DNA of 64,000 nucleotides from Rubellimicrobium arenae. GTDB lineage: Bacteria > Pseudomonadota > Alphaproteobacteria > Rhodobacterales > Rhodobacteraceae. Positions 7,400 through 60,906 of this stretch are shown in pieces. How positions within the stretch are numbered: position 1 is the first letter of the stretch; each line of letters starts with the position of its first letter. The position numbers and the translations under genes are program-made. The notes beneath the pieces were generated by a model that searched no databases, was not told the origin of the DNA, and saw only the letters and a list, made by a program, of their open reading frames with translations. The stretch is from positions 496,001 to 560,000 of the forward strand of contig NZ_JAFMST010000001.1 of the NCBI RefSeq assembly GCF_017916275.1. Direction: 5' to 3'.

Positions 7400-8113
7400 C
7401 TAAAGCCGTCCGAGAGCCGTCGCGAGGTCCCCGTAGCCGGTGAAGCGCCGTTCGAACGCGAGCCCGAGCCGATCCGCGCAGTGGCGGGCCTTCGCGGTCA
7501 GGTCCGGGTTGTCCGTCTGGGCCTGGTACACCAGCGTCTCGTAGTTGCCGAAGTACATGTCCCGCAGTTCTGGATGCCGGTCGAGGCCAAGGGGCCGCCA
7601 GACGAAGGCATCGAACTGCCGCACGAGGAAGTCGGTCAGGTAGAAGGCCGTGAACTCGTCCCGAGCCGCGAAGGTCTCGTTCCCCTCGAAGAAGCTGTAG
7701 CAGTGCGGGCCTTCGACCATCGACACGCCCAAACGATCGCAGGCGGCGCGGAGCAGTCCGCCGGTCCCGCAGTCGGCATAGACCACAAAGATACTGTCGT
7801 AGCTCCCCCGCGCCTGGGTCACCGCAGCCTCAATGGCGGGCACGATCCGGTCAGGGGAGTTGTGCAGGATCGCGGGAAGGCACTGGAGGTCGAGATGGCT
7901 CCAGCCGTTCGCCTCCCTCAGCGCAAGGATCTCGCGGGCCAGTGCCCCGCAGGCGATGAGCAGGACGCGGCCACGCCCCTCCGGGGCGAGGCCTTCGTCC
8001 GTCAGTCCCGCATCAGTGGGCGGGAGCTTGGTTGTGCTTGCGTCCGACAAGAGTCTTCGCGGTCTCCACGGCGACGGCCGCATCGCGGCAATAAGCATCG
8101 GCCCCGATGGCAC
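7400..8113 (-). CDS. DUF1638-type protein coupled to a corrinoid protein gene
   Basis: Up to 237 residues; function unknown. The conserved core begins at GRGRVLLIACGALAREILAL and includes LQCLPAILHNSPDRI, a Cys-containing VVYADCGTGG and VEGPHCYSFFEG, features I associate with the DUF1638 family, which also occurs next to methylamine/corrinoid methyltransferases in methanogens. The coding frame overlaps the end of the upstream corrinoid gene (stop at 8013), so the two are almost surely translationally coupled. The start is uncertain: ATGs at 8113 and 8083 lie well inside the corrinoid gene, a TTG near 8050 would give a shorter overlap, and an ATG overlapping the corrinoid stop is out of frame. 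A role in cobalamin methyl transfer is inferred from context only. Confidence 0.8.
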   Translation of the reverse strand: MPSGPMLIAAMRPSPWRPRRLLSDASTTKLPPTDAGLTDEGLAPEGRGRVLLIACGALAREILALREANGWSHLDLQCLPAILHNSPDRIVPAIEAAVTQARGSYDSIFVVYADCGTGGLLRAACDRLGVSMVEGPHCYSFFEGNETFAARDEFTAFYLTDFLVRQFDAFVWRPLGLDRHPELRDMYFGNYETLVYQAQTDNPDLTAKARHCADRLGLAFERRFTGYGDLATALGRL

Positions 8114-8711
8114 GACCGAACTCCTCGTTCAGGGGTGCGCCGCCGACCAGGACGATATAGTCATCCCGGATGCCTTTTTCCTTCATCGTGTCGATCACGA
8201 CCTTCATGTAGGGCATGGTCGTGGTCAGCAGGGCCGACATGCCGAGGATGTCCGGCTTCTCGGCCTCCAGCGCGTCGAGGTACTTCTCGACGGCATTGTT
8301 GATGCCGAGGTCCACGACCTCGAAGCCCGCGCCTTCCATCATCATCGACACGAGGTTCTTGCCGATGTCGTGGATGTCGCCCTTCACCGTGCCGATCACC
8401 ATCTTGCCCACGCGCGGCGCACCCGTCTCGGCGAGAAGGGGCTTCAGGATCGCCATGCCGCCCTTCATGGCGTTGGCGGCGAGCAGCACCTCGGGAACGA
8501 AGAGGATGCCGTCCCGGAAGTCGGCGCCGACGATGGTCATGCCGCCCACGAGGGCCTTGGTCAGGATGTCGTAGGGCGTCCAACCGCGTTCGAGGAGGAT
8601 GTTCACGCCTTCCTCGATCTCGTCCTTGAGACCGTCGTACAGGTCGTCGAACATCTGCGCGACGAGTTCCTCGTCGTCGAGTTCGGACAGGATGATCTCG
8701 TCGTCGGCCAT
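8013..8711 (-). CDS. cobalamin-binding corrinoid protein, free-standing MetH B12 module
   Basis: 232 residues. An N-terminal helical cap (residues about 10-95, ending GMAILKPLLAE) precedes a Rossmann B12-binding domain with the base-off signature D112-x-H114-x-x-G117 in GTVKGDIHDIGKN; His114 would ligate cobalt from below. Later family segments are ILGMSALLTTTMPYM and LVGGAPLNEEFGRAIGADAYCRDA. The size and order match MtaC/MtbC/MtmC proteins or MetH cap-plus-B12 domains. It probably shuttles methyl groups between the pterin methyltransferase (59.9 kb) and the homocysteine methyltransferase (10.3 kb). The ATG at 8711 has GAGGAG just upstream. It is divergent from the radical SAM gene and overlaps the DUF1638 gene. 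Confidence 0.93.
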   Translation of the reverse strand: MADDEIILSELDDEELVAQMFDDLYDGLKDEIEEGVNILLERGWTPYDILTKALVGGMTIVGADFRDGILFVPEVLLAANAMKGGMAILKPLLAETGAPRVGKMVIGTVKGDIHDIGKNLVSMMMEGAGFEVVDLGINNAVEKYLDALEAEKPDILGMSALLTTTMPYMKVVIDTMKEKGIRDDYIVLVGGAPLNEEFGRAIGADAYCRDAAVAVETAKTLVGRKHNQAPAH

Positions 8712-8840
8712 GTCGGCTCCTCGTCTAATCTGTTGCGGACTGTGTGCGCCCGGGGCGTTCGCCGGTCGCAGCGGATTCCGACACCGCCTGCCCCGCAACC
8801 GACCAAAGGGCAAGAGCTTATCCGCGACTCGGCTTGCCAT

Positions 8841-8855
8841 GTTCCCCTTATGTTC
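8841..8855 (+). promoter_or_regulatory. LexA (SOS) box candidate
   Basis: The sequence GTTC-CCCTTAT-GTTC matches exactly the direct-repeat LexA operator GTTC-N7-GTTC known from alphaproteobacteria such as Rhodobacter, Caulobacter and Rhizobium. It ends 13 bp before the ATG of the SplB-like radical SAM gene at 8869, where bound LexA would block the promoter or early transcript. The divergent corrinoid gene starts 130 bp away. Confidence 0.65.
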
Positions 8856-8868
8856 TAGACTTGCCTCC

Positions 8869-9951
8869 ATGCCCGACGATGCGCCCTCCGTCCCAGCCCA
8901 CCAGCGCCCCGGCCGCGCCGCCGCCAGCAATGCCTCGGGGAGGTTCGAACCTCATGAGCGCGTGAAGTTCGATGACGGCTGGCCCGTGGAGGAGGAGCTT
9001 CCGCCCTTTCGAACACAGGTCACCGAGGAGCGGCCGCGCAAGGTCATCAGCGCCAACACGTCCCCCGACATCCCGTTCGAGCGGTCGCTGAACCCTTACC
9101 GGGGTTGCGAACATGGCTGCATCTACTGCTTTGCACGCCCGACCCACGCCTATCTTGGATTGTCGCCGGGTCTGGACTTCGAGACGAACCTCATCGCCAA
9201 GCCCCTTGCGCCGGCGGTCCTGGCGCGGGAGCTGCGGGGCAGGGGCTATGTGCCCAAGGTTCTTGCCCTCGGCACCAGCACCGATCCATATCAGCCGATC
9301 GAGCGGGATCGCCGGATCACCCGCGGCCTGATCGAGGTGCTGGCCGAGCATGGCCATCCCGTCACCATCACAACGAAGGGCACGCTGATCGAACGTGACA
9401 TCGACCTTCTTGCCCCCATGGCAGCCCGTGGTCTGGCGACGGTGGGGATGTCGGTGACGACTCTGGATCCAGCGGTTGCGCGCGCGATGGAGCCACGCTG
9501 CCCATCACCCGCCCGGCGCCTGGCCACCATCCGGCGGTTGTCCGAGGCCGGGATCCCGGTGCGCGTGCAGGTCTCGCCGGTCGTGCCTGCCCTGACCGAC
9601 CATGAGCTGGAGTCGATCCTTGCACAGGCCGCGCAGGCCGGAGCGCGGGCGGCCAGCATGATCGCCCTGCGTCTCCCGCGTGAGGTGGCCGGGCTGTTCC
9701 GGGAATGGCTGGCGGAACGCTTCCCCGACCGCGCCGCGCGGGTCATGAACCGGGTCCGGGACCTGCATGGCGGTCAGGACTACGATCCGGAGTGGGGCAC
9801 GCGCATGACCGGGCAGGGGGAATGGGCACGGCTTCTGTCCGCCCGTTTCGAACTGGCCTGTCGCAGGCTGGGCTACGGTCCGCTCCCGCCCCTGCGGACC
9901 GATCTCTTCCGGGTGCCCCAAGGGCCCGGCGCTCAGCTTTCGCTGTTCTGA
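8869..9951 (+). CDS. PA0069-family radical SAM protein (SplB/COG1533-like)
   Basis: 360 residues. The radical SAM cluster motif is C80-x3-C84-x2-C87 (NPYRGCEHGCIYCFARPTH). The surrounding segments IPFERSLNPYRG, LALGTSTDPYQPIER and VTITTKG are typical of the PA0069/SplB group, relatives of spore photoproduct lyase with poorly defined substrates. The ATG at 8869 was preferred over upstream in-frame starts because homology begins only after it. A perfect LexA-type box lies just upstream, which supports a DNA-damage role. The last 19 bp overlap the convergent small gene at 9933-10163. Confidence 0.9.
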   Translation: MPDDAPSVPAHQRPGRAAASNASGRFEPHERVKFDDGWPVEEELPPFRTQVTEERPRKVISANTSPDIPFERSLNPYRGCEHGCIYCFARPTHAYLGLSPGLDFETNLIAKPLAPAVLARELRGRGYVPKVLALGTSTDPYQPIERDRRITRGLIEVLAEHGHPVTITTKGTLIERDIDLLAPMAARGLATVGMSVTTLDPAVARAMEPRCPSPARRLATIRRLSEAGIPVRVQVSPVVPALTDHELESILAQAAQAGARAASMIALRLPREVAGLFREWLAERFPDRAARVMNRVRDLHGGQDYDPEWGTRMTGQGEWARLLSARFELACRRLGYGPLPPLRTDLFRVPQGPGAQLSLF

Positions 9952-10163
9952 GGACGCGTGACCGCGAGCCGCACCAGATCCGGCAACGCCTCGACGGGGA
10001 GAACGAAGCAGACGTCCGACCAGCCCTTGGACACGGGAATGGAGGATTCGAACAGAAGCTCGGTTCCGTCGTCGCTCAGGCGCGTGGTGACGTTGGCTTC
10101 CACCTTGCCATAACGGCGGCGAGTGTGGCCCTTGCGGAGGACCCGTTGGCCTTCCAACTGCAT
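9933..10163 (-). CDS. small conserved-looking protein of unknown function
   Basis: 76 residues starting MQLEGQRVLRKGHTRRRYGK. A basic N terminus is followed by alternating hydrophobic and charged stretches (VTTRLSDDGTELLFESSIPVSK, WSDVCFVLPVEALPDLVRLA) that suggest a small beta-sheet protein. I do not recognise the family. The start at 10163 has an excellent AAGGAG seven bases upstream, which argues for a real gene. It is tail-to-tail with, and slightly overlaps, the radical SAM gene, and it follows the terminator hairpin of the homocysteine methyltransferase gene, so it should have its own promoter. Confidence 0.65.
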   Translation of the reverse strand: MQLEGQRVLRKGHTRRRYGKVEANVTTRLSDDGTELLFESSIPVSKGWSDVCFVLPVEALPDLVRLAVTRPQNSES

Positions 10164-10218
10164 CTTGCAACTCCTTGTCTGGAACAAGAAGTAGATGGGG
10201 ATCGGAGAGGCAAAATGT

Positions 10219-10246
10219 AAGTCCCGCCAGCAGTTTGGCGGGACTT
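10219..10246 (-). terminator. strong stem-loop after the homocysteine methyltransferase gene
   Basis: Perfect 11-bp inverted repeat AAGTCCCGCCA / TGGCGGGACTT with a six-base loop, 45 bp beyond the end of the methyltransferase gene in its direction of transcription. Only a weak T-rich tract follows on the minus strand (ACATTTTG). It separates that gene from the small gene starting at 10163. Confidence 0.7.
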
Positions 10247-10290
10247 TCTATGGCGTCGCTTAAGGATTGGTCCGTGACCTCGCCGGCGGA

Positions 10291-11304
10291 TCAGCCGCGG
10301 CTCCGACGACTCCCCCGACGGGCCGTCGGCTCGTCCTCGCCCGTCCCGTCGGAGGCCGACGAGAAGCCCCCAAGCCGGTCGGCGATCACGTCCAGGGTGG
10401 GGCGGTCCCCACGCGGACGGGTTTCCAGCGCGTCGCGCATCTGACGCAAGTGATCGGGGCGGGTGCCGCAGCAGCCGCCGATGATCGTCGCGCCGGCGTC
10501 GCGGGCCAGGACCGCGTATTCGGCCATCAGCTCGGGCGTGCCGTCGTAATGGATGTGGCCCTCGTGGTACCGCGGGATCCCGGCGTTGCCCTTCGCGATG
10601 ATCGGGCGCTCCGGTCCGGCGGCGGAAAAGCCGAGCACCGTCCGCAGGAGGTCGGACGCGCCGACGCCGCAGTTCGCGCCGAAGGCGATCGGCGGATTCG
10701 GCAGCTTGGCGACCATCTTGACCATTTCGGCCGAGGTCAGGCCCATCATCGTCCGGCCTGCGGTGTCGAAGCTCATCGTGCCGCACCAAGGCATCCCCGC
10801 CAGGGCAAACCCCTCGGCGGCGGCCTTGAACTCCTCGGCGGCGCTGATCGTTTCGACCCAGAGGACATCGACGCCCCCATCCTTCAGACCTTCGGCCTGT
10901 TCGTGGAACATGGCCACGGCGGATTCATGGGTGAGCGTGCCCATGGGCGCCATGATCTCTCCGGTCGGGCCGACCGAACCCGCGACCACGACGGGCCTGC
11001 CGGCCGCATCGGCCACCTCGCGGCCGATCTCGGCGGCGACACGGTTCAACTCCCGCACACGCCCTTCGGCCCCGTGCAGCTTGAGCCGAGATGCGTTGCC
11101 GCCGAAGCTGTTGGTGAGGAACAGGTCGCTTCCCGCGTCGACCCAGCCCTGGTAGAGGCGCTTGATGCGGTCGGGATGCTCCAGGTTCCACATCTCGGGC
11201 GCGTCCCCGGCGGTCAGGCCCATGTTGAACAGGTTGGTTCCCGTGGCGCCATCGGTCAGAAGCCAATCGCGGGTTTCAAGCAGGCGGGACAGAGCATCAG
11301 TCAT
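10291..11304 (-). CDS. bmt: Zn-dependent homocysteine S-methyltransferase (BHMT/MetH N-terminal type)
   Basis: 337 residues forming one Hcy-methyltransferase barrel. The zinc ligands are visible as C212 (FGANCGVG) and C278-C279 (IIGGCCGTRP). The N terminus LLTDGATGTNLFNMGL and the segment TNSFGGNASRLKLHG are typical. The family covers betaine-homocysteine methyltransferase and the N-terminal module of MetH. Because free corrinoid, methyl-THF and reactivation modules are also in this window, it is likely the homocysteine module of a split B12-dependent methionine synthase. Direct use of betaine is the alternative. The C-terminal 20-30 residues are a basic, low-complexity tail. No SAM or SAH riboswitch was recognisable upstream. 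Confidence 0.9.
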   Translation of the reverse strand: MTDALSRLLETRDWLLTDGATGTNLFNMGLTAGDAPEMWNLEHPDRIKRLYQGWVDAGSDLFLTNSFGGNASRLKLHGAEGRVRELNRVAAEIGREVADAAGRPVVVAGSVGPTGEIMAPMGTLTHESAVAMFHEQAEGLKDGGVDVLWVETISAAEEFKAAAEGFALAGMPWCGTMSFDTAGRTMMGLTSAEMVKMVAKLPNPPIAFGANCGVGASDLLRTVLGFSAAGPERPIIAKGNAGIPRYHEGHIHYDGTPELMAEYAVLARDAGATIIGGCCGTRPDHLRQMRDALETRPRGDRPTLDVIADRLGGFSSASDGTGEDEPTARRGSRRSRG

Positions 11305-11468
11305 TCGTCAGTCTTTCCAGAATGCGGGCCGCGTTGCGTAGGCCGGGCATTGCACGGGCCGGACCTCGGTTCAAACCCAAATCGGTCGATGCCATCCCGC
11401 GGTTCCCAAGGGCCGCGCGCGGACCCTCGGCGGGGCCGCGCTGCTGCCCGGGACCTGCGGGCCGGCGG

Positions 11469-11786
11469 TCAGCCGACCTCGTTCATGATCTGCGCCTTGG
11501 CCTCGGCCAGAAGGCTGCGCATCTGCGCCCGGATCGTGGTGTCGTCGGCGTGGCTGCCCAGGTCCGCGCGGATCTTGCGGAAGACGTCCTCCTCGCCGGA
11601 TTCCTGGAAGTCGGACTTGATGACCTCGCGGGCGTAGGCATCCGCATCCGCCCCGGACTTGCCGAGCAGTCCGGCGGCCCAGAGTCCGAGAAGCTTGTTC
11701 CGGCGAGCCTCGGCCCGGAACTGCATCTCGGCGTCGTGGGCGAACTTGGCCTCGAAGGCGTGCTCGCGGTCATCGAAGGTCGTCAT
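11469..11786 (-). CDS. DUF1476 protein, F1Fo-ATPase inhibitor zeta subunit
   Basis: 105 residues starting MTTFDDREHAFEAKFAHDAEMQF, the hallmark N terminus of the alphaproteobacterial zeta subunit described in Paracoccus denitrificans, which blocks ATP hydrolysis by F1. The protein is helical and charged, with LLGLWAAGLLG in the middle. The ATG at 11786 was chosen over an upstream frame start because of AGGGGAA just before it and the family N terminus. It is divergent from purC with about 145 bp between the starts. Confidence 0.9.
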   Translation of the reverse strand: MTTFDDREHAFEAKFAHDAEMQFRAEARRNKLLGLWAAGLLGKSGADADAYAREVIKSDFQESGEEDVFRKIRADLGSHADDTTIRAQMRSLLAEAKAQIMNEVG

Positions 11787-11931
11787 CGGCGTTCCCCTGT
11801 TTCGGGCGGGCGCCGCGCCCGCCTGTGCCATGGGATCGATATGACCGTGGGGTGACTTGCCCGCAAGGGGGCCTTGCCGTATGAGGCCCCCAACCTCACA
11901 CGAGCGGGTCCCCCGGGCCCGGGGAGCCCCT

Positions 11932-12693
11932 ATGGCACGTCGCAAGAAGATCTACGAAGGCAAGGCGAAGATCCTCTACGAAGGGCCGGAGCCGGGCACC
12001 ATCGTACAGTACTTCAAGGATGACGCCACGGCCGGCAACGGCGCCAAGAAGGAAGTCTTCGAGGGCAAGGGCGTCCTGAACAACCGCCTGTCCGAATTCT
12101 TCATGACGGGCCTTCAGCAGATCGGCGTGCCCACCCACTTCATCCGCCGCCTCAACATGCGCGAGCAGCTTGTCCGGCAGGTCGAGATCATCCCGCTCGA
12201 GGTCATCGTCCGGAACTTCGCCGCTGGCTCCATGGCCAAGCGCCTGGGCCTCGACGAGGGGGCCCAGCTGCCCCGGCCGATCGTCGAGTTCTGCTACAAG
12301 GACGACCGCCTGGGCGACCCTCTCGTGCCCGAGGAGTACGTCATCGCGTTCGGCTGGGCGTCCCAGCAGGATCTGGACGACATCGTGGCGCTGGCGCTGC
12401 GGGTGAACGACTTCCTGTCGGGCGTCATGCACGGTGTCGGCATCAAGCTCGTCGACTTCAAGATCGAGATCGGCCGCATCTGGGACGGCGACTACCCCCG
12501 ACTGGTCGTCGCCGACGAGATCAGCCCCGATTCCTGCCGGTTGTGGGATATCGAGACCGGTCGCAAGCTGGACAAGGACGTGTTCCGCAGGGACCTCGGT
12601 TCGCTGACCGACGCCTATACCGAGGTGGCGCGGCGCCTGGGCGTGCTGCCCTCGAACGTGACCCACCGTCCCAAGCCTACGCTCATCAACTGA
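11932..12693 (+). CDS. purC: phosphoribosylaminoimidazole-succinocarboxamide synthase (SAICAR synthetase)
   Basis: 253 residues. It joins CAIR and aspartate using ATP in purine synthesis. [22 protein letters not shown] gives the nucleotide-binding beta strands. [20 protein letters not shown] and [31 protein letters not shown] are diagnostic segments. The ATG at 11932 has GGGGAG six bases upstream. It is followed 11 bp later by purS and is the first gene of purC-purS-purQ. Confidence 0.97.
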
Positions 12694-12704
12694 AAGCGCT
12701 CGAC

Positions 12705-12944
12705 ATGAAGGCCACCGTCACCGTGATGCTCAAGAACGGCGTGCTCGATCCCCAGGGCGAGGCTGTGCGCCGGGCGCTCGGCTCTCTGGGCTTCGAGGGT
12801 GTCGAGGGCGTTCGCCAGGGCAAGGTGATCGAACTCGACCTGTCGAGCCTGGATCGTGCCGCTGCGGAAACCGAGGTGCGGGCGATGTGCGAAAAGCTCC
12901 TCGCCAACACCGTCATCGAAAGCTACCGGATCGAGATCGCCTGA
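12705..12944 (+). CDS. purS: phosphoribosylformylglycinamidine synthase subunit PurS
   Basis: 79 residues, normal length for PurS, the small subunit that bridges PurL and PurQ in the three-component FGAM synthase. It starts MKATVTVMLKNGVLDPQGEAVRRAL, then GFEGVEGVRQGKVIELDL and a C-terminal TVIESYRIEI, all typical. It sits between purC and purQ. The catalytic partner purL is not in the window. Confidence 0.94.
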   Translation: MKATVTVMLKNGVLDPQGEAVRRALGSLGFEGVEGVRQGKVIELDLSSLDRAAAETEVRAMCEKLLANTVIESYRIEIA

Positions 12945-13184
12945 TCCGGCCAGCAGCCTCCCTGGCGAAGGCCCGGGGAGGCGGCCGATGGTTGAGCGGG
13001 GCTCGCCGGGCCGCGTGGGTTGCGCGGGTGGTGACGCCACGCGGCACGCAGCCGCAGTCGAAGCGCATCCGCTGGCTTCAAGGGCCGACGCGGAACGCGA
13101 TGGAGTGCGGCCAGCCTTGCTCAGGGTTGACGCGCCCCCGTGCGCGGGTGTTAAGGGCCACGCCAGCCCTGAGAAGGAGTCGCC

Positions 13185-13853
13185 ATGAAAGCCGCAGTTG
13201 TCGTCTTTCCGGGTTCGAACTGCGACCGTGATCTTGCCGTCGCCCTGCGTAACGCCGGCGCGGACGTCACCATGGCCTGGCACAAGGACGCGGCGTTGCC
13301 GGCTGGCACGGATCTCGTTGCCGTGCCGGGCGGGTTCTCCTTCGGGGATTATCTCCGCTGCGGCGCCATCGCGGCCCAGTCCCCGATCGGGGCGGCCGTC
13401 CAGGCCCATGCCCGTCGCGGCGGCTACGTGCTCGGTGTGTGCAACGGCTTCCAGGTGCTGACCGAGATGGGGCTGCTGCCTGGGGCACTGATGCGGAACG
13501 CCGGCCTCAAGTTCATCTGCCGGACCGCGGCGCTGCGCGTCGCCACCTCCGACAGCGCCTTCACCGGCAGCTTCGAACAGGGTCAGCTGGTCCGCTTTCC
13601 CGTGGCGCACCACGACGGCAACTACTTCGCCGACCCCGAGACGCTCGCCCGCCTTCGCGGCGAGGATCGTATCGCGTTCACCTATGCCGATCCCCTCAAC
13701 GGCTCGGTCGAGGATATCGCGGGGGTGCTGTCGTCGAACCGGCGTGTCCTAGGCCTTATGCCGCATCCCGAGCGGGCGGCGGATCCCGGCCATGGCGGGA
13801 CCGACGGGCAGGCGCTTTTCCGCGGGGTTGTGGAGCAGTTCGCGGTCGTCTGA
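13185..13853 (+). CDS. purQ: phosphoribosylformylglycinamidine synthase subunit PurQ (glutaminase)
   Basis: 222 residues, class I glutamine amidotransferase that delivers ammonia to PurL. It starts [17 protein letters not shown]. The nucleophile Cys is in [13 protein letters not shown] (about residue 86), and the catalytic His-x-Glu is in GLMPHPERA near the C terminus. GAGAAGGAGTCGCC precedes the ATG at 13185. A 240-bp gap without a recognisable gene separates it from purS, unusual in an otherwise compact cluster; it may hold a secondary promoter. Confidence 0.96.
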
Positions 13854-13898
13854 CCGCGGTTCCTTGAGGGCGGTCCTCACCCGGCGTAAGCCACCGCC

Positions 13899-15653
13899 AT
13901 GAGCATCGCCCGCGATATACCCGTGTCCCGATCCACCCGGTCCTGGTGGCCGCGCATCGCGCTGGCCCTGTTCTGCCTGGCTGCGATCGCGATCATCTGG
14001 ATCACCAACCAGGTCCTCACCCAGCGTTTCACCGAAACGACGCGCAACCGCGCGGAGGTGCGGTACACGCTCTACGTGGGTCAGCTCGTCTCCGAGCTGC
14101 AGCGGAACTCGATCGTGCCGCAGCTTCTGGGGCGGGATCCCGAGCTGATCAACGCGCTCCAGATGCAGGATTTCTCGCGCACCACGCAGCGGCTCCTGAG
14201 CCTTGTGGACGAGATCGGCGCGGCGTCGATCATGCTTTACGACCGGGACGGGCGGGTGGTCGCGGCCACCGAACGGACGCGCCTTGGCGAGAACCATCGG
14301 ACGGCTCCCTACTTCACCAACGCACTCCGCTCCAGGTCCACCGTGTTCACGGCGCTTGAGGGACCGACCGGAGCCTATGCCTTCCTCTATTCGCGGGCCG
14401 TGGACGACGGCGGGGATCCTCTGGGCGTCATTTCGGTCGAGGTGGACCTTGCCCGGCTCGAACAGAACTGGGCAGGCACGCAGGATGCCGTCATGGTCGT
14501 GGACAGCACCGGCCGGGTGATCCTCGCCACCGAGCGGCGCTGGCGCGGGCTGAGCGAGACCGACGCGCTGGAGCTCACGTCGGCGCCCACATCCATCGAA
14601 CGGGCGCTCCGGGCGACTCAGGATTGGACCACGCTGCCCGTCGACGCCTACGTGAGCGGAGAGGCGGTGATGCGGCGCGAGCTCCGCATCCCGTTCCAGG
14701 GCTGGCGGCTCGTCGGCTTCACCGCCTACGCCAGCGTCCGGGAGCGCGTGAACGGCGTCCTCGCCCTGGAGATCATGGGGTTCGCGATCCTGCTGGCCCT
14801 GGCGTTCTGGCTGTCGTCCCGCAAGACGGCCTCGCGCCTCGTGTCGACGCAGCGCGAGTCCGCCGAGCTCCGTCTCCTCAACGCGCGCCTGAGCCGGGAG
14901 ATCGCCGAGCGCGAGCGGATGGAGAAGACGCTCCAGGTCGCGGAGCAGACGCTCGCCCAGTCGTCCAAGCTGGCCGTGCTGGGCGAGATGTCGGCCGCCG
15001 TCAGCCATGAGCTGAACCAGCCTCTGGCCGCGATGAAGACCTATTTGGCGGGCGCGCGGCTCCTGATCCAGCGCAAGCGCCCCGAGGAGGCGCTGGCCTC
15101 GTTCCAGCGGATCGACGATCTGATCGACCGGATGGGCGCGATCACGCGCCAGCTCAAATCCTACGCGCGAAAGGGCTCGGACGCCTTCGAGCCGTTCGAC
15201 GTCCGCGACGCCGTCTCCTCGGCGCTGGCCATGATGGAGCCGCAGCTCAAATCCCGGCGCATCGCGATCACCCGGACCATGCCGGACGGACCGGCCCGCG
15301 TGATGGGCGACCGGCTGAGGCTGGAGCAGGTCATCATCAACCTTCTTCGCAACGCACTCGACGCCACACGGGGGGCAAAAGACCCTGCGGTCGACCTCCT
15401 TTTGGCCGCTGGACAGACCGTAAGTTTAACAGTCCGCGACAATGGGCCTGGAATCGAAGATCTAGACGCGCTCTTCGAGCCTTTCTATACGACTAAACAG
15501 CCTGGCGACGGGGTTGGCCTGGGGCTCGCCATTTCGTCCGGCATCGTGAACGACCTGGGCGGGCGGCTGACCGCACGGAATGGGGCCGATGGGGGCGCGG
15601 TGTTCGAGGTGGTCCTCCCCGCGCTGGACACGACGGCGGCCGCCGCTGAATAG
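13899..15653 (+). CDS. dctB: C4-dicarboxylate sensor histidine kinase DctB
   Basis: 584 residues, inner-membrane sensor. TM1 is at residues about 13-36 (IALALFCLAAIAIIWI), then a periplasmic double-Cache-like sensing domain to about 285, TM2 (MGFAILLALAFWL), a coiled coil (ESAELRLLNARLSREIAERER), and the HisKA H-box AAVSHELNQPLAAMKTY with phospho-His near residue 369. The ATPase domain shows N (NLLRNALDATRG), G1 (DNGPGIED) and G2 (GDGVGLGLAISSGI) boxes. The order and the paired regulator 12 bp downstream match DctB/DctD, which control C4-dicarboxylate uptake. No dctA or dctPQM is in the window, so the ligand is inferred. Confidence 0.88.
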   Translation: MSIARDIPVSRSTRSWWPRIALALFCLAAIAIIWITNQVLTQRFTETTRNRAEVRYTLYVGQLVSELQRNSIVPQLLGRDPELINALQMQDFSRTTQRLLSLVDEIGAASIMLYDRDGRVVAATERTRLGENHRTAPYFTNALRSRSTVFTALEGPTGAYAFLYSRAVDDGGDPLGVISVEVDLARLEQNWAGTQDAVMVVDSTGRVILATERRWRGLSETDALELTSAPTSIERALRATQDWTTLPVDAYVSGEAVMRRELRIPFQGWRLVGFTAYASVRERVNGVLALEIMGFAILLALAFWLSSRKTASRLVSTQRESAELRLLNARLSREIAERERMEKTLQVAEQTLAQSSKLAVLGEMSAAVSHELNQPLAAMKTYLAGARLLIQRKRPEEALASFQRIDDLIDRMGAITRQLKSYARKGSDAFEPFDVRDAVSSALAMMEPQLKSRRIAITRTMPDGPARVMGDRLRLEQVIINLLRNALDATRGAKDPAVDLLLAAGQTVSLTVRDNGPGIEDLDALFEPFYTTKQPGDGVGLGLAISSGIVNDLGGRLTARNGADGGAVFEVVLPALDTTAAAAE

Positions 15654-15665
15654 GAAGGACGGGGA

Positions 15666-17000: not shown

Positions 17001-17397
17001 CCGGGCTTGCGGTTGCCCATTGTGCATCCGCGCCTGCGTTGGCTATGAAGGGAGGAACGGGTTCGCACATGCTGTGCGCCCCGCCGATGAATTTCCGCCC
17101 GACCGGACTGCGGCCATCGACCGCTACGGCCGGTGCGGACTGGACTGGGTCGTTTTGGCCCTAACGTATCCCCGGCCGCGTCGCTCTCGGTGGCGCCAAG
17201 GGGAATTGAACGGGCGTCGTGAACTTCCGCGACGTCGGAGAAGAACCCGCGATGCTGCTCGCGCATGATGTTGGAAGTCAGGGACCGGTCCAAGGCGACC
17301 GTGGCCCCGCTTCCGCGCGCGCCGTCGCTCTTATTGGACACGCCCGGCACGGTGGAGCCCTTCAGGGGGCCCCGCCGGGCTGCGCGTGCAGGATCAC
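17001..17397 (+). promoter_or_regulatory. 397-bp leader upstream of rne
   Basis: No convincing gene. The stretch lies between dctD and rne in the same orientation and contains GC-rich inverted segments, for example CATCGACCGCTACGGCC-type and GGGGGCCCCGCC-type near 17370. RNase E genes in other bacteria carry long 5' untranslated regions through which the enzyme destabilises its own mRNA, so this may serve the same purpose. I could not recognise a conserved rne-leader motif or a clear promoter. Confidence 0.4.
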
Positions 17398-20331: not shown

Positions 20332-20339
20332 GACTCCAG

Positions 20340-47027: not shown

Positions 47028-47073
47028 GGTGATGCGCCCGGAGGTAAATGGTCCTCCGGGCGGCGTCAAGGCG

Positions 47074-50734
<3,661 letters not shown>

Positions 50735-50737
50735 CGC

Positions 50738-51901: not shown

Positions 51902-51923
51902 GACGCGGACCCGCTGGCGCATC

Positions 51924-51939
51924 TTAACCGGAAGTTAAG
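51924..51939. promoter_or_regulatory. CtrA-type binding site before cckA
   Basis: TTAA-CCGGAAG-TTAA matches the CtrA full-site core TTAA-N7-TTAA; the surrounding CTTAAC and GTTAAG form an inverted repeat as well. It lies 45 bp before the cckA GTG start, within or next to the probable promoter. The match is to the known consensus; binding is inferred. Confidence 0.55.
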
Positions 51940-51983
51940 CATTCTGTGGTCTGTCTCGAACGCTTGAGCGGGCAGGAGGTCAG

Positions 51984-54317: not shown

Positions 54318-54472
54318 CGTGTTCCGATCTCGCGATGACCGGCGCCGTGTCCCCGCCGCGCGGTCCGGCCGGTTCTGCACGTTGTGATATGATTCCGCGC
54401 TTGCCGGCTTGGACTCAGGGGGCGGTCAATCCTCAGACGAGCAGGGCAGGCCTGAGGTCACCTGCACCCTGC
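54318..54472. other. short intergenic region between cckA and glk
   Basis: 155 bp between convergent genes. GAGCAGGG (54439-54446) and CCCTGCTC (54467-54474) form an inverted repeat that overlaps the glk stop; CCTCAG/CTGAGG (54431 and 54451) can also pair. These may terminate transcription from one or both sides, but no T tract is visible. Confidence 0.4.
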
Positions 54473-55489
54473 TCAGATGAGACGTCGCTGCAGGATCCCG
54501 GCGATGTGCGCCGCGGACCCCGTCAGGGCCGCGTTGTCGTCCTCGATGATCCCGACCCCGAAGCTCCTCATGAACTCCGAGAAGCGCCCCTTGTCGCGGA
54601 AGGCTTCGGCGAACCCGAACTCTGCCAGATAAGGGCCAAAGGCCCGTGCGAGCCCGCCGACGAGCCAGATACCCCCAAAAGGCAAGGTCGTCAGTGCCAG
54701 ATCCCCAGCCACGGCTCCGAGCATCTGCACGAAGACGCGACCGGCCCGGCCGGCCCGGCTGTCGGCCTCGCGGGACATCTCGTCCATGATCTCGGACGAG
54801 GTCGCGCGCCGGTCGTCGCCCTCCTCCTGGCCGAGCCAGTCGAAGACCTGCACGATGCCCCGGCCGGACAGAACCTCCTCGACCGAACCGAACCCATGCG
54901 TCTGCCCGACGAACCGGGCCAGACGAAGGTCACGTTCGGAGCGGACGGGCAGGGTGACATGCCCGGCCTCGGCCGCTGGCACGAGACGCCCCGCCTCGGT
55001 GTCGAACACCTGGGCGATGTTGAAGCCCGTGCCCAGGTTGATCACCAGCTTGGGCGCATGGGGGATGATCTCGGTGGCGGGGATGACAGAGATGGTCCGG
55101 GCCGGGTCGACGAAGCCGATCGCATGACCCTGCGCCTGAAGATCGTTGAGGATCGCGGCGGTCGGGGCCCCTGTCGCCCGGCTCAGGGTCGCGTTGTCGA
55201 TGGCCCAGTCGCGATTGGTCAGGGTCCCGCGTCCATCCTTGACCGGACCCGCCACGGCGACGCAGGCCGCCGCCAGTCCGCTGACCGCTTCGTCGGAGAT
55301 GAAGCGACGCAGCGCATCCTCCAGGGTCGGGTAATCGGCATTCGCGTAACGCCGGATGGTCGAGGTCACCACCTCCGACCCTTGTGCGATCGCAACGCGC
55401 GTATTGGTCCCGCCGACGTCGGCAACCAAGGTCAGCATGGAGGACGGAACGGGCATGGGGAACCTCGTGGCAGGGGCTTCGATGCTCAT
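54473..55489 (-). CDS. glk: glucokinase
   Basis: 338 residues, Glk family (not ROK). LTLVADVGGTNTRVAIAQG is the phosphate-1 site, LTNRDWAIDNATL and ILNDLQAQGHAIG carry the sugar-binding Asn and Asp, and NLGTGFNIAQVF with PAAEAGHVTLPVRSE the second phosphate/glucose segment. GGIWLVGGLARAF is the adenosine region. It phosphorylates free glucose from the alpha-glucosidase. The start at 55489 has AAGGAG but only three bases of spacing; the ATG at 55456 has GAGG at better spacing and is a fair alternative. Divergent from the glucosidase gene. Confidence 0.93.
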   Translation of the reverse strand: MSIEAPATRFPMPVPSSMLTLVADVGGTNTRVAIAQGSEVVTSTIRRYANADYPTLEDALRRFISDEAVSGLAAACVAVAGPVKDGRGTLTNRDWAIDNATLSRATGAPTAAILNDLQAQGHAIGFVDPARTISVIPATEIIPHAPKLVINLGTGFNIAQVFDTEAGRLVPAAEAGHVTLPVRSERDLRLARFVGQTHGFGSVEEVLSGRGIVQVFDWLGQEEGDDRRATSSEIMDEMSREADSRAGRAGRVFVQMLGAVAGDLALTTLPFGGIWLVGGLARAFGPYLAEFGFAEAFRDKGRFSEFMRSFGVGIIEDDNAALTGSAAHIAGILQRRLI

Positions 55490-55641
55490 AGGCTCCTTCG
55501 GCACCGGGCATCAAGGTTGCGCGACGCAGGCCGAACTTGCCAGGAGGCTGCCCCCGGAACATCTGTGCGGCTCTGGGGGGACTCTGGACGTCGACTCCGG
55601 GGTCTGCCAACACCACCTCTGCCCGTTCAACGAGGACAACG

Positions 55642-57312
55642 ATGCTGTCAACCAGCGAGACCGGACCTGATTACCTCCCCGGAGTGACGCCTCTTCCCTT
55701 GGATCCGGAATGGTGGCGTGGGGCGGTCATCTACCAGATCTATCCCCGGAGCTACCAGGACTCGGACGGGGACGGGATCGGAGACCTTGCCGGCATCGCC
55801 GACCGCCTGCCGCACATCGCCCGCCTCGGGGCCGAGGCGATCTGGATCAGCCCCTTCTTCACCTCGCCGATGAAGGACTTCGGCTACGACGTTTCGGACT
55901 ACTGCGACGTCGATCCGATGTTCGGGACGCTGGCGGACTTCGACCGCGTCGTTGCGACCGCCCACGATCTCGGACTGAGGGTCATGATCGACCTGGTCCT
56001 GTCGCACACGTCCGACCGGCATCCCTGGTTCATGGAAAGCAAGCAGTCGCGCGACAACCCGCGGGCCAACTGGTATGTCTGGGCCGAACCCAAGGCCGAC
56101 GGGTCGCCGCCGAACAACTGGCTGTCCGTGTTCGGCGGCTCGGCGTGGCAATGGCATCCCGGGCGCGAGCAGTATTACCTGCACAATTTCCTGACCTCCC
56201 AGCCGGACCTCAACCTCCACGACCCCGAGGTGCAGGACGCGCTTCTCGACGTGGTGCGGTTCTGGCTGAAGCGCGGGGTCGACGGGTTCCGGCTGGACAC
56301 CATCAACTTCTACTTTGCCGACAGATATCTGCGGGACAACCCTCCACTTCCGAAGGAGATGCGGAACGACTCCATCGCGCCGTCGGTCAACCCCTACAAC
56401 CACCAGCTCCACCTGTTCTCGAAGAACCAACCCGAGAACCTTGAATTCCTGCGGAGATTTCGGTCCGAGCTGGTGCCCTACGGTGCGGCGGCGGTGGGCG
56501 AGGTGGGCGACGCGCAGCGTGGCCTCGAGATCATGGCCGAATACACGAGCGGCGGGGACAAGGTGCAGATGTGCTACCCCTTCGAGCTGCTCCAGCCGAG
56601 CCGTGCCACGGCCCCCTTCATCGCGACCGCCTTCGACCGCCTGTCGCGGGCGGCGCCTGATGCCTGGCCGTGCTGGTCCTATTCGAACCACGACACCGTT
56701 CGCCATTTCACGCGCTGGAACCTGTCGGACGAGGCCGCAAGGGCTTACACCACGCTGCTGATGTGCCTGCGCGGCTCGGTCTGCCTGTACCAGGGCGAAG
56801 AACTTGGCTTTCCCGAGGCCGACGTGGCGTTCGAGGACCTGCAGGATCCCTACGGCATCGCTTTCTGGCCCGAGTTCAAGGGGCGGGACGGAGCCCGCAC
56901 GCCGATGGTCTGGGAGCCATCGAACCAGGCTGGCGGCTTCTCGACAGGGCGCCCCTGGCTTCCGGTCTCGCCAACGCATCTGCCGCTCTCGGTCGCGTCC
57001 CAGGATGAGGACGAGTCCTCCATGCTCTCGCACTACCGTCGGGCGGTTGCCTTCCGAAAGGCCCACCAGGCGCTGCGCACCGGCGCGCAGTCCCCGATGC
57101 TGGCGGCCGGCAACGTGGTGGAGTTCGTTCGGATCGGCGGGGGCGAGCAGGTCTTTGTCGCCGTGAACCTGGGCGGCACGGCGAGCACGATCGCAGTCCC
57201 CCCGGGGGAGTGGACGGTGGCGGATCCCGTCCTGTCCGTTCCCGTGGCCGACGGGGCAGCCGAGGTGACGCTCGGCCCGTGGCAGGTTTGCCTCATGCTG
57301 AAGGCGGGCTGA
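55642..57312 (+). CDS. GH13 alpha-glucosidase
   Basis: 556 residues, probably cytoplasmic because no signal peptide is seen. GH13 signatures: AVIYQIYPRSYQDSDGDGIGDLAGI, VMIDLVLSHTSDRHPWF, nucleophile Asp219 in DGFRLDTINFYFAD, acid/base Glu near 286 in AVGEVGDAQ, and transition-state Asp in SNHDTVRHFT. The sequence resembles rhizobial AglA, which cleaves alpha-glucosides such as sucrose and maltose taken up by AglEFGK; no such transporter is in the window. ATG at 55642 with GAGGACAACG upstream was chosen. Together with glk it supplies G6P to zwf and pgi. Confidence 0.92.
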   Translation: MLSTSETGPDYLPGVTPLPLDPEWWRGAVIYQIYPRSYQDSDGDGIGDLAGIADRLPHIARLGAEAIWISPFFTSPMKDFGYDVSDYCDVDPMFGTLADFDRVVATAHDLGLRVMIDLVLSHTSDRHPWFMESKQSRDNPRANWYVWAEPKADGSPPNNWLSVFGGSAWQWHPGREQYYLHNFLTSQPDLNLHDPEVQDALLDVVRFWLKRGVDGFRLDTINFYFADRYLRDNPPLPKEMRNDSIAPSVNPYNHQLHLFSKNQPENLEFLRRFRSELVPYGAAAVGEVGDAQRGLEIMAEYTSGGDKVQMCYPFELLQPSRATAPFIATAFDRLSRAAPDAWPCWSYSNHDTVRHFTRWNLSDEAARAYTTLLMCLRGSVCLYQGEELGFPEADVAFEDLQDPYGIAFWPEFKGRDGARTPMVWEPSNQAGGFSTGRPWLPVSPTHLPLSVASQDEDESSMLSHYRRAVAFRKAHQALRTGAQSPMLAAGNVVEFVRIGGGEQVFVAVNLGGTASTIAVPPGEWTVADPVLSVPVADGAAEVTLGPWQVCLMLKAG

Positions 57313-57333
57313 CGGTCGCGCGGGCGGATCGGA

Positions 57334-58443
57334 TCAGAGGGCATCCTCGAGCACGCCGTCCGCGCTCATCTGCGCGTAAAGCAGCCCCTCGCGCAGGCCC
57401 CGGTCCGCTACCGAAAGTCGGTCCGTGGGCCAGAGCCGCATCAGGGCCTGCAGGATCGCCGCGCCCGACATGATGAGCTCGTGCCGGTCCTTGCCGATTC
57501 GAGGGTCGGCCCTGCGTCCGTCCGGACCTAGCATCAGGTAATCCCGGACCACCGCGTCGATCTGGTCCGAGGTCATCCTGAGCCCGTCGACCTTGGCGCG
57601 GTCGTACCGCTTGAGGCCAAGATGGCTCGCCGCCACTGTGGTCACGGTGCCGGAGGTGCCGATGATCTGGAACCCTTCGCGCGACTGCGGCGTGGCCGAG
57701 GGGGCAAAGGCTGCGAGGTTCTCCTCGAAGTACCAGCTCATCAGGGCAAAGCGGGCCGCGTCGTCCTCGACGTCCTCGAACTGGTCGCGGAGAGTCGCGA
57801 CGCCCAGCGGCACGCTGATCCAGTCGACGACCTTGGCCACCGGAAACGGGGCAGGCGCCTGCCGGAACCCCGCGTGGAGCCGCATGATGGCGCGCGGCCG
57901 CTCCCGCCGGGGAACGCTGGTGAGATCGATCCAGACGAGCTCGGTGGAGCCGCCGCCGATGTCGACGACCAGAAGCTGCTCGGTCCGGGTCGAAACGAGC
58001 GGCGCGCAGGAGATGACGGCGAGCCGGGCCTCCTCCTCGGGCTGGATGATCTCGAGCGCGAGGCCCGTCTCGCGGCGGACCTGCTGGAGGAACTGGGCGC
58101 CGTTCCGGGCGCGGCGGCAGGCTTCGGTCGCAACAAGCCGCATCCGGCCGACGTTGTGCCGGGCCAGCTTCTGCTTGCAGATCCGGATGGCCCCGATGGT
58201 CCGGGCCATGGCCGTTCGCGACAGACGTCCCGTCGCCTCCAGCCCCTGACCGAGCTGGACGGACTTCGAGAAGCTGTCGACCACATGGAACCCGCTGCCC
58301 TTCGGCTGCGCGATCAGCATGCGGCAACTGTTAGTGCCCAGGTCCAGCGCCGCATAAAGCGTCGCCGGATCGGGAATTGCTGGCGCGGGCGACTCGACCG
58401 CGATTGGGAATGCGCCCGCGCTCTCGGGACGCCTGGGCGCCAT
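57334..58443 (-). CDS. Ppx/GppA-family phosphatase
   Basis: 369 residues, ASKHA fold. YAALDLGTNSCRMLIAQP (phosphate 1), VVDIGGGSTELVWID (phosphate 2) and FQIIGTSGTVTTVAASHLGL are present, and IIQPEEEARL holds catalytic Glu residues. It hydrolyses either inorganic polyphosphate or pppGpp; the two cannot be told apart here. It lacks the C-terminal HD-like half of E. coli Ppx, as is common in alphaproteobacteria. ATG at 58443 preceded by GGAGGG. Divergent from the small PF13769-type gene, with about 155 bp between starts. Confidence 0.9.
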   Translation of the reverse strand: MAPRRPESAGAFPIAVESPAPAIPDPATLYAALDLGTNSCRMLIAQPKGSGFHVVDSFSKSVQLGQGLEATGRLSRTAMARTIGAIRICKQKLARHNVGRMRLVATEACRRARNGAQFLQQVRRETGLALEIIQPEEEARLAVISCAPLVSTRTEQLLVVDIGGGSTELVWIDLTSVPRRERPRAIMRLHAGFRQAPAPFPVAKVVDWISVPLGVATLRDQFEDVEDDAARFALMSWYFEENLAAFAPSATPQSREGFQIIGTSGTVTTVAASHLGLKRYDRAKVDGLRMTSDQIDAVVRDYLMLGPDGRRADPRIGKDRHELIMSGAAILQALMRLWPTDRLSVADRGLREGLLYAQMSADGVLEDAL

Positions 58444-58600
58444 GGACGCGCCCTCCAATCTGAACTTGCTTCGACTGTAGCGGCAGGAGCGCGGTCGGCG
58501 CAAGTCTCACGCAGTCGCATGGAACGCGGGACATGTCGAAAACCGGCATTGCGAATGTCGTGTCCTGGCATAGAAGCAGGCCAGGAACTGCGAGGACCCC

Positions 58601-58897
58601 ATGCCTGACGTCACGATCGTTTACTGGCGCGACATCCCGGCCCAGATCATCGTCGGGTCGGGCCGCCGTGGAACCAAGATCCAGCTGAGCGAACGGTTCG
58701 AGCAGGCGATCGACCGTGCCGCCATGAAGGCCGGCGCGCGCGATACCGACTCCTACCTCGCTGAATGGCGCAAGGCCCCGGCCTACCCGGTCGAGGGAGA
58801 GCCCGCCGAGGTCGCGCGCGCCGAAGCCGATCGGATCGAGGCCGAATACGACACCGCGCGTCTCAGGACGCTGATCGACAACGACGGCCGGGCGTGA
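58601..58897 (+). CDS. small PF13769-type protein upstream of metF-like gene
   Basis: 98 residues: VTIVYWRDIPAQIIVGSGRRGTKIQLSERFEQAIDRAAM then a charged helix (EVARAEADRIEAEYDTARLRTLI). I recognise it as the family labelled 'virulence factor' (PF13769) in databases, a historic name with no proven function. The location 26 bp before the MetF-like gene and the same strand imply a shared role in folate or methyl transfer, and it lacks catalytic-looking motifs, so it may be an accessory subunit. ATG at 58601 with GCGAGGACCCC upstream. Confidence 0.8.
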   Translation: MPDVTIVYWRDIPAQIIVGSGRRGTKIQLSERFEQAIDRAAMKAGARDTDSYLAEWRKAPAYPVEGEPAEVARAEADRIEAEYDTARLRTLIDNDGRA

Positions 58898-58923
58898 CGT
58901 CCCTGCGCCTTCCGGAGGTTCTC

Positions 58924-59853
58924 ATGTCGCTTCTCCCCTTCATGCGCCGCAAGGCCGAGGCTCCTGCCACGCCCGGCATCGGCACCGCACAATTCCTCAA
59001 GGGCTGGTCCATCGAGGTCATGCCCCGCACCGCCGAGAAGGTGGAGGACTTCCGTGCGATCCTGCCACCCGGCACGCGCGTCTACATCGCCCATATCGAT
59101 GGCACCGCCATCGAGGACATGGTCGCGACCGCCAAGCGGATCGCGGGGCAGGGCTTCGACGTCATGCCGCACTTCCCGGCCCGCTCGATCGCCGACCGCG
59201 CCACGCTCGCGGACTGGATCGCCCGTTACCAGGGCGAGGCCGGCATCACCGAGGGCCTGATCCTCGCCGGTGGGCGCAAGGACCCGGCGGGCGACTTCGC
59301 CTCCTCCATGGACCTGCTGGAGACCGGGCTCTTCGACCATCACGGGTTCAAGCGCCTGCACCTGGCCGGCCACCCGGAAGGCAACAAGGACATCGATCCG
59401 GACGGGTCCGACCGCATGGTGATGGAGGCCCTGCGCTGGAAGCAGGCCTTCGCGCAGCGGACCGGAGCCAAGCTGGCGCTCGCCACCCAGTTCTGCTTCG
59501 ACGCCCAGCCCGTGATCGCCTGGGTGGACCGCCTGAAGGCCGAGGGGATCGACCTGCCGGTCCATATCGGCATCGCGGGTCCCGCCAAGCTCCAGACCCT
59601 GATCAAGTTCGCCATCGCCTGTGGCGTGGGTCCCTCGCTTCAGGTGCTGCAGAAGCGCGCGCTGGACGTGACCAAGCTTCTCCTGCCTTATGAGCCCGAC
59701 GATGTCGTGGACCAGCTGGCCGCGCACAAGGCCGCGCACCCGGCCTTCGGGATCGAGCAGGTCCACATCTTCCCGCTGGGCGGCATCTCGACCGCCGCCA
59801 GCTGGGCCAACACCCGCACCGGGCAATCGCCCGCCCTCGCAGCCAACGGATAG
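58924..59853 (+). CDS. methylenetetrahydrofolate reductase-like protein
   Basis: 309 residues. PF02219-like TIM barrel. The segment KGWSIEVMPRTAEKVEDF aligns with E. coli MetF SFEFFPP and keeps the Glu that protonates the substrate. HFPARSIADRATLADWIARYQGE and ILAGGRKDPAGDF match the His-Ala-Arg and substrate strands of the family. LATQFCFDAQPVIAWVDRLKAEGIDLPVHIGIAGPAKLQTLIKFA is the C-terminal part. It would reduce 5,10-methylene-THF to 5-methyl-THF, feeding the methyltransferase that starts 3 bp later. It diverges enough from MetF that a distinct flavin or pterin use is possible. Confidence 0.85.
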   Translation: MSLLPFMRRKAEAPATPGIGTAQFLKGWSIEVMPRTAEKVEDFRAILPPGTRVYIAHIDGTAIEDMVATAKRIAGQGFDVMPHFPARSIADRATLADWIARYQGEAGITEGLILAGGRKDPAGDFASSMDLLETGLFDHHGFKRLHLAGHPEGNKDIDPDGSDRMVMEALRWKQAFAQRTGAKLALATQFCFDAQPVIAWVDRLKAEGIDLPVHIGIAGPAKLQTLIKFAIACGVGPSLQVLQKRALDVTKLLLPYEPDDVVDQLAAHKAAHPAFGIEQVHIFPLGGISTAASWANTRTGQSPALAANG

Positions 59854-59856
59854 AGA

Positions 59857-60906
59857 ATGACCCGTACCATCGTCGAATCGCAGACGAAAACCGCGATCAT
59901 CGGCTTCGACCAGCCCTTCTGCGTGATCGGCGAGCGCATCAACCCGACGGGGCGCAAGAAGCTCGCGGCCGAGCTGGAGGCGGGGGACTTCTCGACCGTC
60001 GAGGCGGACGCCATCGCCCAGGTCGCCTGCGGGGCCACCGTTCTCGATATCAACGCCGGGGTGGTCTACAACTCCAACCCCAACCCGAACGAGACCGAGC
60101 CGCCGCTGATGCGCAAGATCATCGAGCTCGTGCAGGGGCTGGTGGACGTGCCGCTCTGCATCGACTCCTCGGTTCCGGCCGCGCTCGAGGCCGGTCTGCA
60201 GGTGTGCAAGGGCCGCCCGCTCCTCAACTCGGTCACGGGCGAGGAGGAGCGGCTCGAATTCGTGCTGCCGCTCGTCAAGAAGTACAACGTGCCGGTCGTG
60301 GCGATCTCGAACGACGACACCGGCATCAGCGAGGACCCCGACGTCCGCTTTGCCGTCGCCAAGAAGATCGTGCAGCGCGCGGCCGACTTCGGCATCCCGG
60401 CCCATGACATCGTCGTGGACCCGCTGGTGATGCCGGTGGGCGCGATGGCGACCGCCGGGCTGCAGGTGTTCACGCTCGTCCGCCGCCTGCGCGAGGAACT
60501 GGGCGTCAACACGACCTGCGGGGCGTCCAACATCTCGTTCGGGCTCCCGAACCGGCACGGCATCAACAACGCCTTCCTGCCGATGGCCATGGGCGCGGGC
60601 ATGACCAGCGCCATCATGAACCCGGTGGCGCTGCCGATCACGCAGAAGGCCATCGCCGAAAAGAAGGCCGAGGTCGCTGCCGCGGGCGTCGTCCTTCCCG
60701 AAGGCATGGACGATGAGACCTTCGTGCAGCTGTTCGGCCTGGGGTCGACCAAGGCCCGCCCCGGCAAGGAAATGGAAGCCATCCGCGCCGCCAACTTCCT
60801 GACCAACAACGATCCCTCGGGCGGTGACTGGATCAAGTTCAATCGCCCGCCCGCGGCCGAGGGCGAGGGTCGTCAGCGCCGGGCCGGGGGTCGCCGTCGC
60901 GCCTGA
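59857..60906 (+). CDS. methyltetrahydrofolate:corrinoid methyltransferase (pterin-binding)
   Basis: 349 residues, DHPS-like pterin-binding barrel. [21 protein letters not shown] (25-45), [12 protein letters not shown] (64-68 DINAG) and [16 protein letters not shown] are the hallmarks, with [13 protein letters not shown] and [23 protein letters not shown] later. It moves the methyl group of 5-methyl-THF to the Co(I) of a corrinoid protein, the role of the second MetH module or of AcsE/MtgA. The C terminus is a Gly/Arg-rich tail ([14 protein letters not shown]), absent from classic family members. Third gene after the PF13769-type and MetF-like genes. Confidence 0.9.

Follow-up and report, generated by a model that had tools for sequence, protein, structure and literature searches.

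Separate methionine synthase proteins in Rubellimicrobium arenae and a candidate third component of corrinoid reactivation

How is methionine made in a bacterium where the modules of the B12-dependent methionine synthase MetH are encoded as separate proteins, and what reactivates the corrinoid once the reactivation domain of MetH is missing? Both questions are raised by a stretch of 64,000 nucleotides of the Rubellimicrobium arenae genome (G000:C11:496001-560000), hereafter called the window. A preliminary description of this DNA had placed five module proteins in it as separate genes; open reading frames were confirmed at all five places, and the five proteins are borne out by Pfam matches or solved relatives. 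Judged from the sequence, it is very likely that this DNA encodes a B12 methionine synthase made of separate proteins, together with the partners known for it. The system is an ordinary one, already described and well supported in this genome, with one new part. This part, a small PF13769 protein, is probably (at roughly 0.6) the third member of a reactivation set, next to a RamA/RACo-like activase and a DUF1638 protein. The genes concerned are listed below, with domain calls from Pfam at an expectation value (E) of E <= 0.001, complemented by NCBIfam/TIGR profiles and by relatives in the PDB.

8013-8711, minus strand: mtgC, corrinoid protein with a helical cap and a B12 domain (PF02310, E 1.4e-26; B12-binding_2, PF02607, E 4.1e-17)
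10291-11304, minus strand: mtgE, homocysteine methyltransferase barrel (S-methyl_trans, PF02574, E 3.9e-65)
59857-60906, plus strand: mtgD, methyl-tetrahydrofolate (methyl-THF):corrinoid methyltransferase barrel (Pterin_bind, PF00809, E 4.2e-26)
47074-49137, minus strand: RamA/RACo-like corrinoid reductive activase (PF17650, PF17651, PF14574; RACo linker/middle/C-terminal E 1.7e-85)
7400 to about 8050, minus strand: DUF1638 protein, directly downstream of mtgC (PF07796, E 3.2e-30)
58601-58897, plus strand: PF13769 ('Virulence_fact') protein of 98 amino acids (aa), just before metF2-mtgD (E 4.2e-30)
58924-59853, plus strand: metF2, divergent methylenetetrahydrofolate reductase, just before mtgD (7xg9, E 6.7e-54; TIGR00676 weak, E 3.9e-6)
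8749-9951, plus strand: radical SAM gene between mtgC and mtgE, on the opposite strand to them; a conserved neighbour, not a part (PF04055)

The synthase proteins and the rest of the genome

Across the whole genome (4.55 Mb, 99.58% complete), neither the MetH reactivation domain (PF02965) nor the MetE domain (PF01717) gave a single match, and the split enzyme is therefore the only methionine synthase visible. A metH or metE missed in an assembly gap is possible but, given this completeness, unlikely. The earlier statement that no intact MetH or MetE is present thus holds for the rest of the genome as well. The remaining profiles gave one match each for PF02607, PF02219, PF14574, PF07796 and PF13769, two for PF02574, five for PF06253 and zero for PF12225. 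The second PF02574 protein (C4:27609-28487) is more distant (125 bits) and MmuM-like by eye; it might form methionine from another methyl donor, which speaks against a sole synthase.

The motifs for DxHxxG, Zn-Cys and [2Fe-2S] Cys are read here in their known roles. MtgC carries DIHDIG (DxHxxG) at residue 112, has 1y80 as its best solved relative (E 4.3e-53) and is the sole protein of the genome with PF02607, the MetH-type corrinoid cap. The nearest solved relative of MtgE is the MetH fragment 1q7m (E 5.1e-37), ahead of the betaine-homocysteine methyltransferases 1umy (E 1.2e-15) and 1lt7 (E 1.3e-14). Its Cys 212, 278 and 279 are in register with three Cys of 1q7m, which we take to be a T. maritima MetH fragment with these Cys as its Zn ligands. 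MtgE is a putative Zn barrel, with three Cys at the MetH Zn-ligand places. MtgD is nearest to the folate barrel of 1q7m (E 5e-35) and to the methyl-THF corrinoid/iron-sulfur protein methyltransferases (about E 1e-33). Every separate part matches its own stretch alone of the MetH model TIGR02082, and none is a one-chain MetH. The likeness to MetH covers its homocysteine, folate, cap and B12 modules, down to corresponding residues. MetH itself is a single chain that also includes a reactivation domain, PF02965, which is missing here.

The scores of MtgC against the NCBIfam models of anaerobe MtgC are below the curated cut-offs (NF047996, 198 vs 370 bits; NF047995, 167.5 vs 310 bits), in agreement with the report of a distinct branch (PMC12478193). 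MtgC and MtgE are 88% and 77% identical to their counterparts in Phaeobacter sp. J2-8, and MtgC and DUF1638 are 90% and 73% identical to those of R. pomeroyi SZCCDBG043. The order MtgE-radical SAM-MtgC-DUF1638 is conserved among 80 related loci, some of which end at contig ends: MtgC is found in 77, the radical SAM gene in 62 and MtgE in 57.

In Phaeobacter, transposon fitness data mark the three synthase parts, DUF1638 and the RamA-like protein as important when methionine is not supplied, and mutants of the DUF1638 orthologue are rescued by methionine, while the radical SAM gene at the same place is not important in minimal media (PMC5764234). In Ruegeria, the parts were named MtgC, MtgD and MtgE, plus RamA and DUF1638, and mutants back the orthologues (PMC12478193). 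Since these two studies describe the system, the idea of the preliminary description, a three-part MetH with RamA-like reactivation as proposed for roseobacters, was already published. Phaeobacter inhibens has the same domains, the order DUF1638-mtgC-radical SAM-mtgE (c13340-c13370) and no MetH; its activase and mtgD lie elsewhere on the chromosome, whereas all parts in the window fall within 53.5 kb (PMC5764234). The MtgBCDE dual methionine synthase/glycine betaine methyltransferase of Ruegeria pomeroyi shares MtgC, MtgD, MtgE, RamA, DUF1638, MetF2 beside mtgD and MTTB elsewhere (PMC12478193). Here, metF2 precedes mtgD, and a Rieske oxygenase that is a candidate for acting on betaine is encoded as well. 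Rubellimicrobium is not named in the main texts of the two papers, so a genus outside both supports the view that methionine synthesis can depend on nothing but separate B12 modules, which betaine breakdown uses as well.

By analogy with the orthologues for which mutants exist, MtgD would transfer the methyl group of methyl-THF to cob(I)alamin in MtgC, and MtgE would pass it from MtgC to homocysteine to give methionine. The proposal that four diffusible proteins run methionine synthesis is upheld as far as the separate-protein synthase goes. Its parts list is too short: it omits DUF1638, needed in Phaeobacter, and PF13769, probably a further part.

Reactivation and the PF13769 protein

Corrinoid reactivation without a MetH domain, and with it the role of DUF1638, would come down to three genes: the activase, DUF1638 and PF13769. 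The activase has the linker, middle and ASKHA domains and the Fe-S Cys of RACo/RamA, matches RACo 3zyy (E 1e-87) and carries the N-terminal motif C51-x5-C57-x2-C60...C105 of the [2Fe-2S] type; its start codon is uncertain, with a TTG at 49137. It shares the ASKHA activase and Fe-S domain with RACo and methanogen RamA and differs in standing beside DUF1638 and, as proposed, PF13769. The genome has one copy each of the activase and DUF1638. After oxidation of the cobalt to Co(II), the activase, with its [2Fe-2S] and ASKHA domains, would reduce it at the expense of ATP and together with DUF1638, as both are needed in Phaeobacter.

The start codon of DUF1638 is likewise uncertain (in-frame TTG at 8050; the reading frame list begins at GTG 8113). 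Cys 11, 34, 71 and 94 of its 193-aa core are invariant in 75/75 aligned sequences. They are also kept in a further set of seven sequences and, as read from the translations, in L128-L132, Terrarubrum, Azoarcus, S. meliloti and P. aminovorans. A confident structure model (pLDDT 91.3) puts two of these Cys at strand ends (Cys 11 on strand 6-11, Cys 34 on strand 30-35) and the other two in loops, Cys 71 behind strand 63-67 and Cys 94 ahead of helix 96-99. The four could plausibly bind a metal. The model gave no convincing fold match, nor did sequence or profile searches of the PDB; as the fold comparison is weak, no fold family is claimed, nitrogenase-like Fe-S proteins included. An S. meliloti DUF1638 protein appears as one table row in PMC12542648.

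The strongest single argument for pairing PF13769 with the activase, and not with MetF2, is a natural fusion. On plasmid unnamed3 of Terrarubrum flagellatum (L137:9001-11283), a stop-free frame of 760 aa joins PF13769, Fer2 and the RACo linker, middle and C-terminal domains. It is annotated only as 'virulence factor' and adjoins MtgC and DUF1638, following both; MetF and MtgD are not annotated within the 18-kb stretch. Further evidence comes from the co-occurrence in 121 genomes (own genome and 120 relatives; 73 in the own family, 48 outside). Of the 121, 77 hold PF13769 together with RACo and 43 hold neither; PF13769 stands alone in one (G061) and RACo alone in none; outside the family, both are present in seven and neither in 41. 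Within the family, PF13769 was found in 71 genomes, RACo and MTTB in 70 each, DUF1638 in 69 and PF02965 in 10. DUF1638 and RACo are both present in 74 of the 121 genomes, both absent in 43 and discordant in 4. Outside the family, PF13769 lies <=1.2 kb from DUF1638 in 4/6 genomes having DUF1638. Among plasmid records (tblastn), PF13769 occurs in 8, DUF1638 in 10 and RACo-like proteins in 16; all ten records with DUF1638 have RACo and 7/10 have PF13769. DUF1638 and PF13769 are both missing from six RACo plasmid records that belong to distant groups, at 30-35% identity.

Several observations weigh against PF13769 as a reactivation component. Three plasmid records with DUF1638 and RACo lack it, all from Paracoccus and two of them from one species (two clusters rechecked by profile; the search covered plasmid records). 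In G073, it is missing from the cluster and sits on another contig. It occurs without DUF1638 in G015, G040 and G079 (the last 7% contaminated, its hits being short pieces at contig ends) and without RACo in G061. Of the controls, B. subtilis has PF13769 and no PF14574 hit, and Methanosarcina acetivorans has RACo, MTTB and DUF1638 hits but no PF13769. Moreover, most of the co-occurrence comes from one family, and the 121 genomes are therefore not independent events; with genomes this related, the Fisher values for DUF1638 and PF13769 cannot be read as such probabilities either. PF13769 may also be active from another place in the genome, or serve other functions; one Pseudorhodobacter plasmid carries it without DUF1638 or RACo on the plasmid.

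An alternative is that PF13769 is a partner of MetF2/MetV in methyl-folate oxidation and not of the corrinoid activase. It lies <=1.2 kb from MetF2 in 68/70 family genomes whose MetF2 match is strong (of the 87 MetF2 genomes, 17 were excluded: 16 outside the family and G049 with a weak match), and it immediately precedes MetV-MetF in S. meliloti and Azoarcus. This is nevertheless unlikely in view of the fusion to the activase in Terrarubrum, whose 18-kb stretch has neither MetF nor MtgD annotated, and of G087, where PF13769 is in the cluster, PF12225 has zero matches genome-wide and a different reading frame separates PF13769 from mtgD. Less probable still is that PF13769 is a passenger, a conserved small gene without a role in the cluster. 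That the clusters of the Paracoccus plasmids and of G073 lack it would fit a passenger, but its occurrence is nearly identical to that of RACo outside the family too, the fusion is a natural one, and the order is conserved in Alpha- and Betaproteobacteria.

For PF13769 as a member of the reactivation set, a wider proposal can be made, for which the odds are about even: it would be an overlooked third corrinoid-reactivation component of aerobic proteobacteria, together with the RACo-like activase and DUF1638, and probably an electron-donor docking piece at the [2Fe-2S] domain. As it directly precedes the [2Fe-2S] domain in the Terrarubrum fusion, docking is suggested, bringing either the electron donor or MtgC to the activase. 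The protein of the window contains neither Cys nor His, which makes a redox-carrier role of its own unlikely; DUF1638 may contribute a metal cluster to this electron path. As Methanosarcina acetivorans possesses the other parts but no PF13769, this protein may allow an anaerobe-type activase to operate in air. Residues invariant in eight sequences are W9, R10, D11, I12, P13, Q15, G21, R22, K26, L29, R32 and F33, among others. A profile search against the PDB gave one hit (E 0.43), and a single-sequence model (pLDDT 51.4) was not used.

The link of PF13769 to this system is the new point. The main text of PMC5764234 has zero occurrences of 'virulence', and that of PMC12478193 zero of 'virulence' and of PF13769. 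In the open-licence PMC literature, no paper was found by the family id. Among the matches listed there (title and start of abstract) for 'conserved virulence factor C', CvfC or Virulence_fact, none is on this system, and no paper among the matches listed has activase and virulence factor together. If the proposal is true, calling these PF13769 proteins 'virulence factor' misleads, and the name needs replacing.

MetF2 and the betaine connection

The preliminary description had called the MetF-like protein a supplier of methyl-THF. MetF2 has no Pfam match at the threshold, the MTHFR family included; the solved methylenetetrahydrofolate reductase 7xg9 is its best structural relative, and the canonical MetF (PF02219, E 1.4e-85) is encoded on contig 34. 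In Ruegeria, MetF2 lies beside mtgD and was assigned to methyl-folate oxidation (PMC12478193). Therefore, the paralogue in the window is probably not the supplier and, by analogy, probably works as a methyl-folate oxidase. The Asp of the RGD in 1v93 is Gly or Ala in 14/14 aligned MetF2-like sequences (13 loci, L118-L127 and L133-L135, plus the window). As 7xg9 retains this Asp, its loss does not characterise the group as a whole. The exchange may mean an altered flavin site, which would fit the published oxidative role without proving it. A MetV partner (PF12225) for MetF2 has no match in the genome. No match to promoter or terminator consensus was found around the metF2 genes.

Five PF06253 (MTTB) matches lie in the genome outside the window, four of them listed with their places, as in an MtgBCD system. 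By analogy with Ruegeria, this suggests that MtgC also takes methyl groups from betaines, accepting them from MTTB-type betaine demethylases encoded elsewhere; in the betaine direction, MtgD would run in reverse and MetF2 would oxidise methyl-THF. With five MTTB matches, MtgC probably docks with more than the three partners in turn that had been proposed before. That the set serves only the breakdown of glycine betaine or another methylamine, with methionine coming from elsewhere, is hardly credible. In its favour, one of the MTTB genes is one gene from an OpuAC betaine-binding protein, NCBIfam names MtgE a betaine-homocysteine methyltransferase (607.6 bits vs a cut-off of 338) and a second PF02574 protein exists, but the MetH/MetE domains are absent from the genome, MtgE is closer to MetH than to the solved betaine-homocysteine methyltransferases, and orthologues are required for methionine in two genera (PMC5764234, PMC12478193).

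The MTTB gene near OpuAC (C1:57000-69000) adjoins a LysR regulator and is followed by nitrous oxide reductase-type genes. Another MTTB match (C1:89000-100000, L144) stands beside a Fer2-domain reductase (6499-7689 of that locus) and a Rieske oxygenase (7574-8950). This pair is possibly a GbcAB-like betaine demethylase; there are maybe two betaine routes in one genome.

Gene order across genomes

The preliminary description treated the genes as one locus spread over 53 kb. The span is real (53.5 kb), but a 53-kb cluster as a functional unit is ruled out by the variable distances in 23 genomes (own genome included, picked by eye). At least one same-contig distance among DUF1638, activase and MetF2 was obtained in 21/22 other genomes of this selection, from 3.0 kb to 1.01 Mb. 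DUF1638 and the activase are 38-54 kb apart in the own genome, G002, G004 and G005; the distance grows to 153 kb in G006 and to 393 kb in G001, and in G007 and G003 the two are on different contigs. Because distances and contigs vary across the genus, the 53 kb is better seen as a remnant of loose synteny. The intervening genes, read outside about 13.9-44.4 kb and 51.9-55.5 kb, seem to have nothing to do with the system: Pfam identifies PGI and an L-PSP family protein, and GuaB, RsmB and Ppx were named by eye. An Rfam scan of the window at gathering scores gave two tRNAs and nothing else.

In the own family, the cluster is split between DUF1638 and PF13769. PF13769-metF2-mtgD stay together in 12/12 family loci fetched (L118-L127, L134, L135), and RlmE-MtgD-MetF2-PF13769-Ppx...RsmB-GuaB-activase is kept in the 5/5 loci fetched from the genus (L118-L122; five of seven same-genus genomes). 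Outside the family, the clusters are compact. By annotation, the Azoarcus order is mtgC-DUF1638-PF13769-MetV-MetF-mtgD-activase, and S. meliloti has the same order with other genes interspersed. Similar clusters occur in G105, G108 and G112 (MetF named by eye, with two MetF in G105); in G108, an MtgC match was not found within the 18 kb taken. The compact form would be ancestral, as suggested by these outside genomes and not by a tree.

In family genomes G030 and G053, PF02965 is present and DUF1638, RACo, MTTB, MetF2 and PF13769 are all absent, as if MetH and the split system replace each other. Eight family genomes hold PF02965 and DUF1638 together, and outside the family there is no opposition between the two (PF02965 in 3/6 genomes with DUF1638 vs 24/42 without).

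Two minor observations concern single genomes. On pSymB of S. meliloti (L139:12058-12396), a 112-aa protein without a Pfam hit is encoded between mtgD and the activase. Family genome G071 has two DUF1638, two activase and one PF13769 match (contigs C261, C393, C69 and C160).

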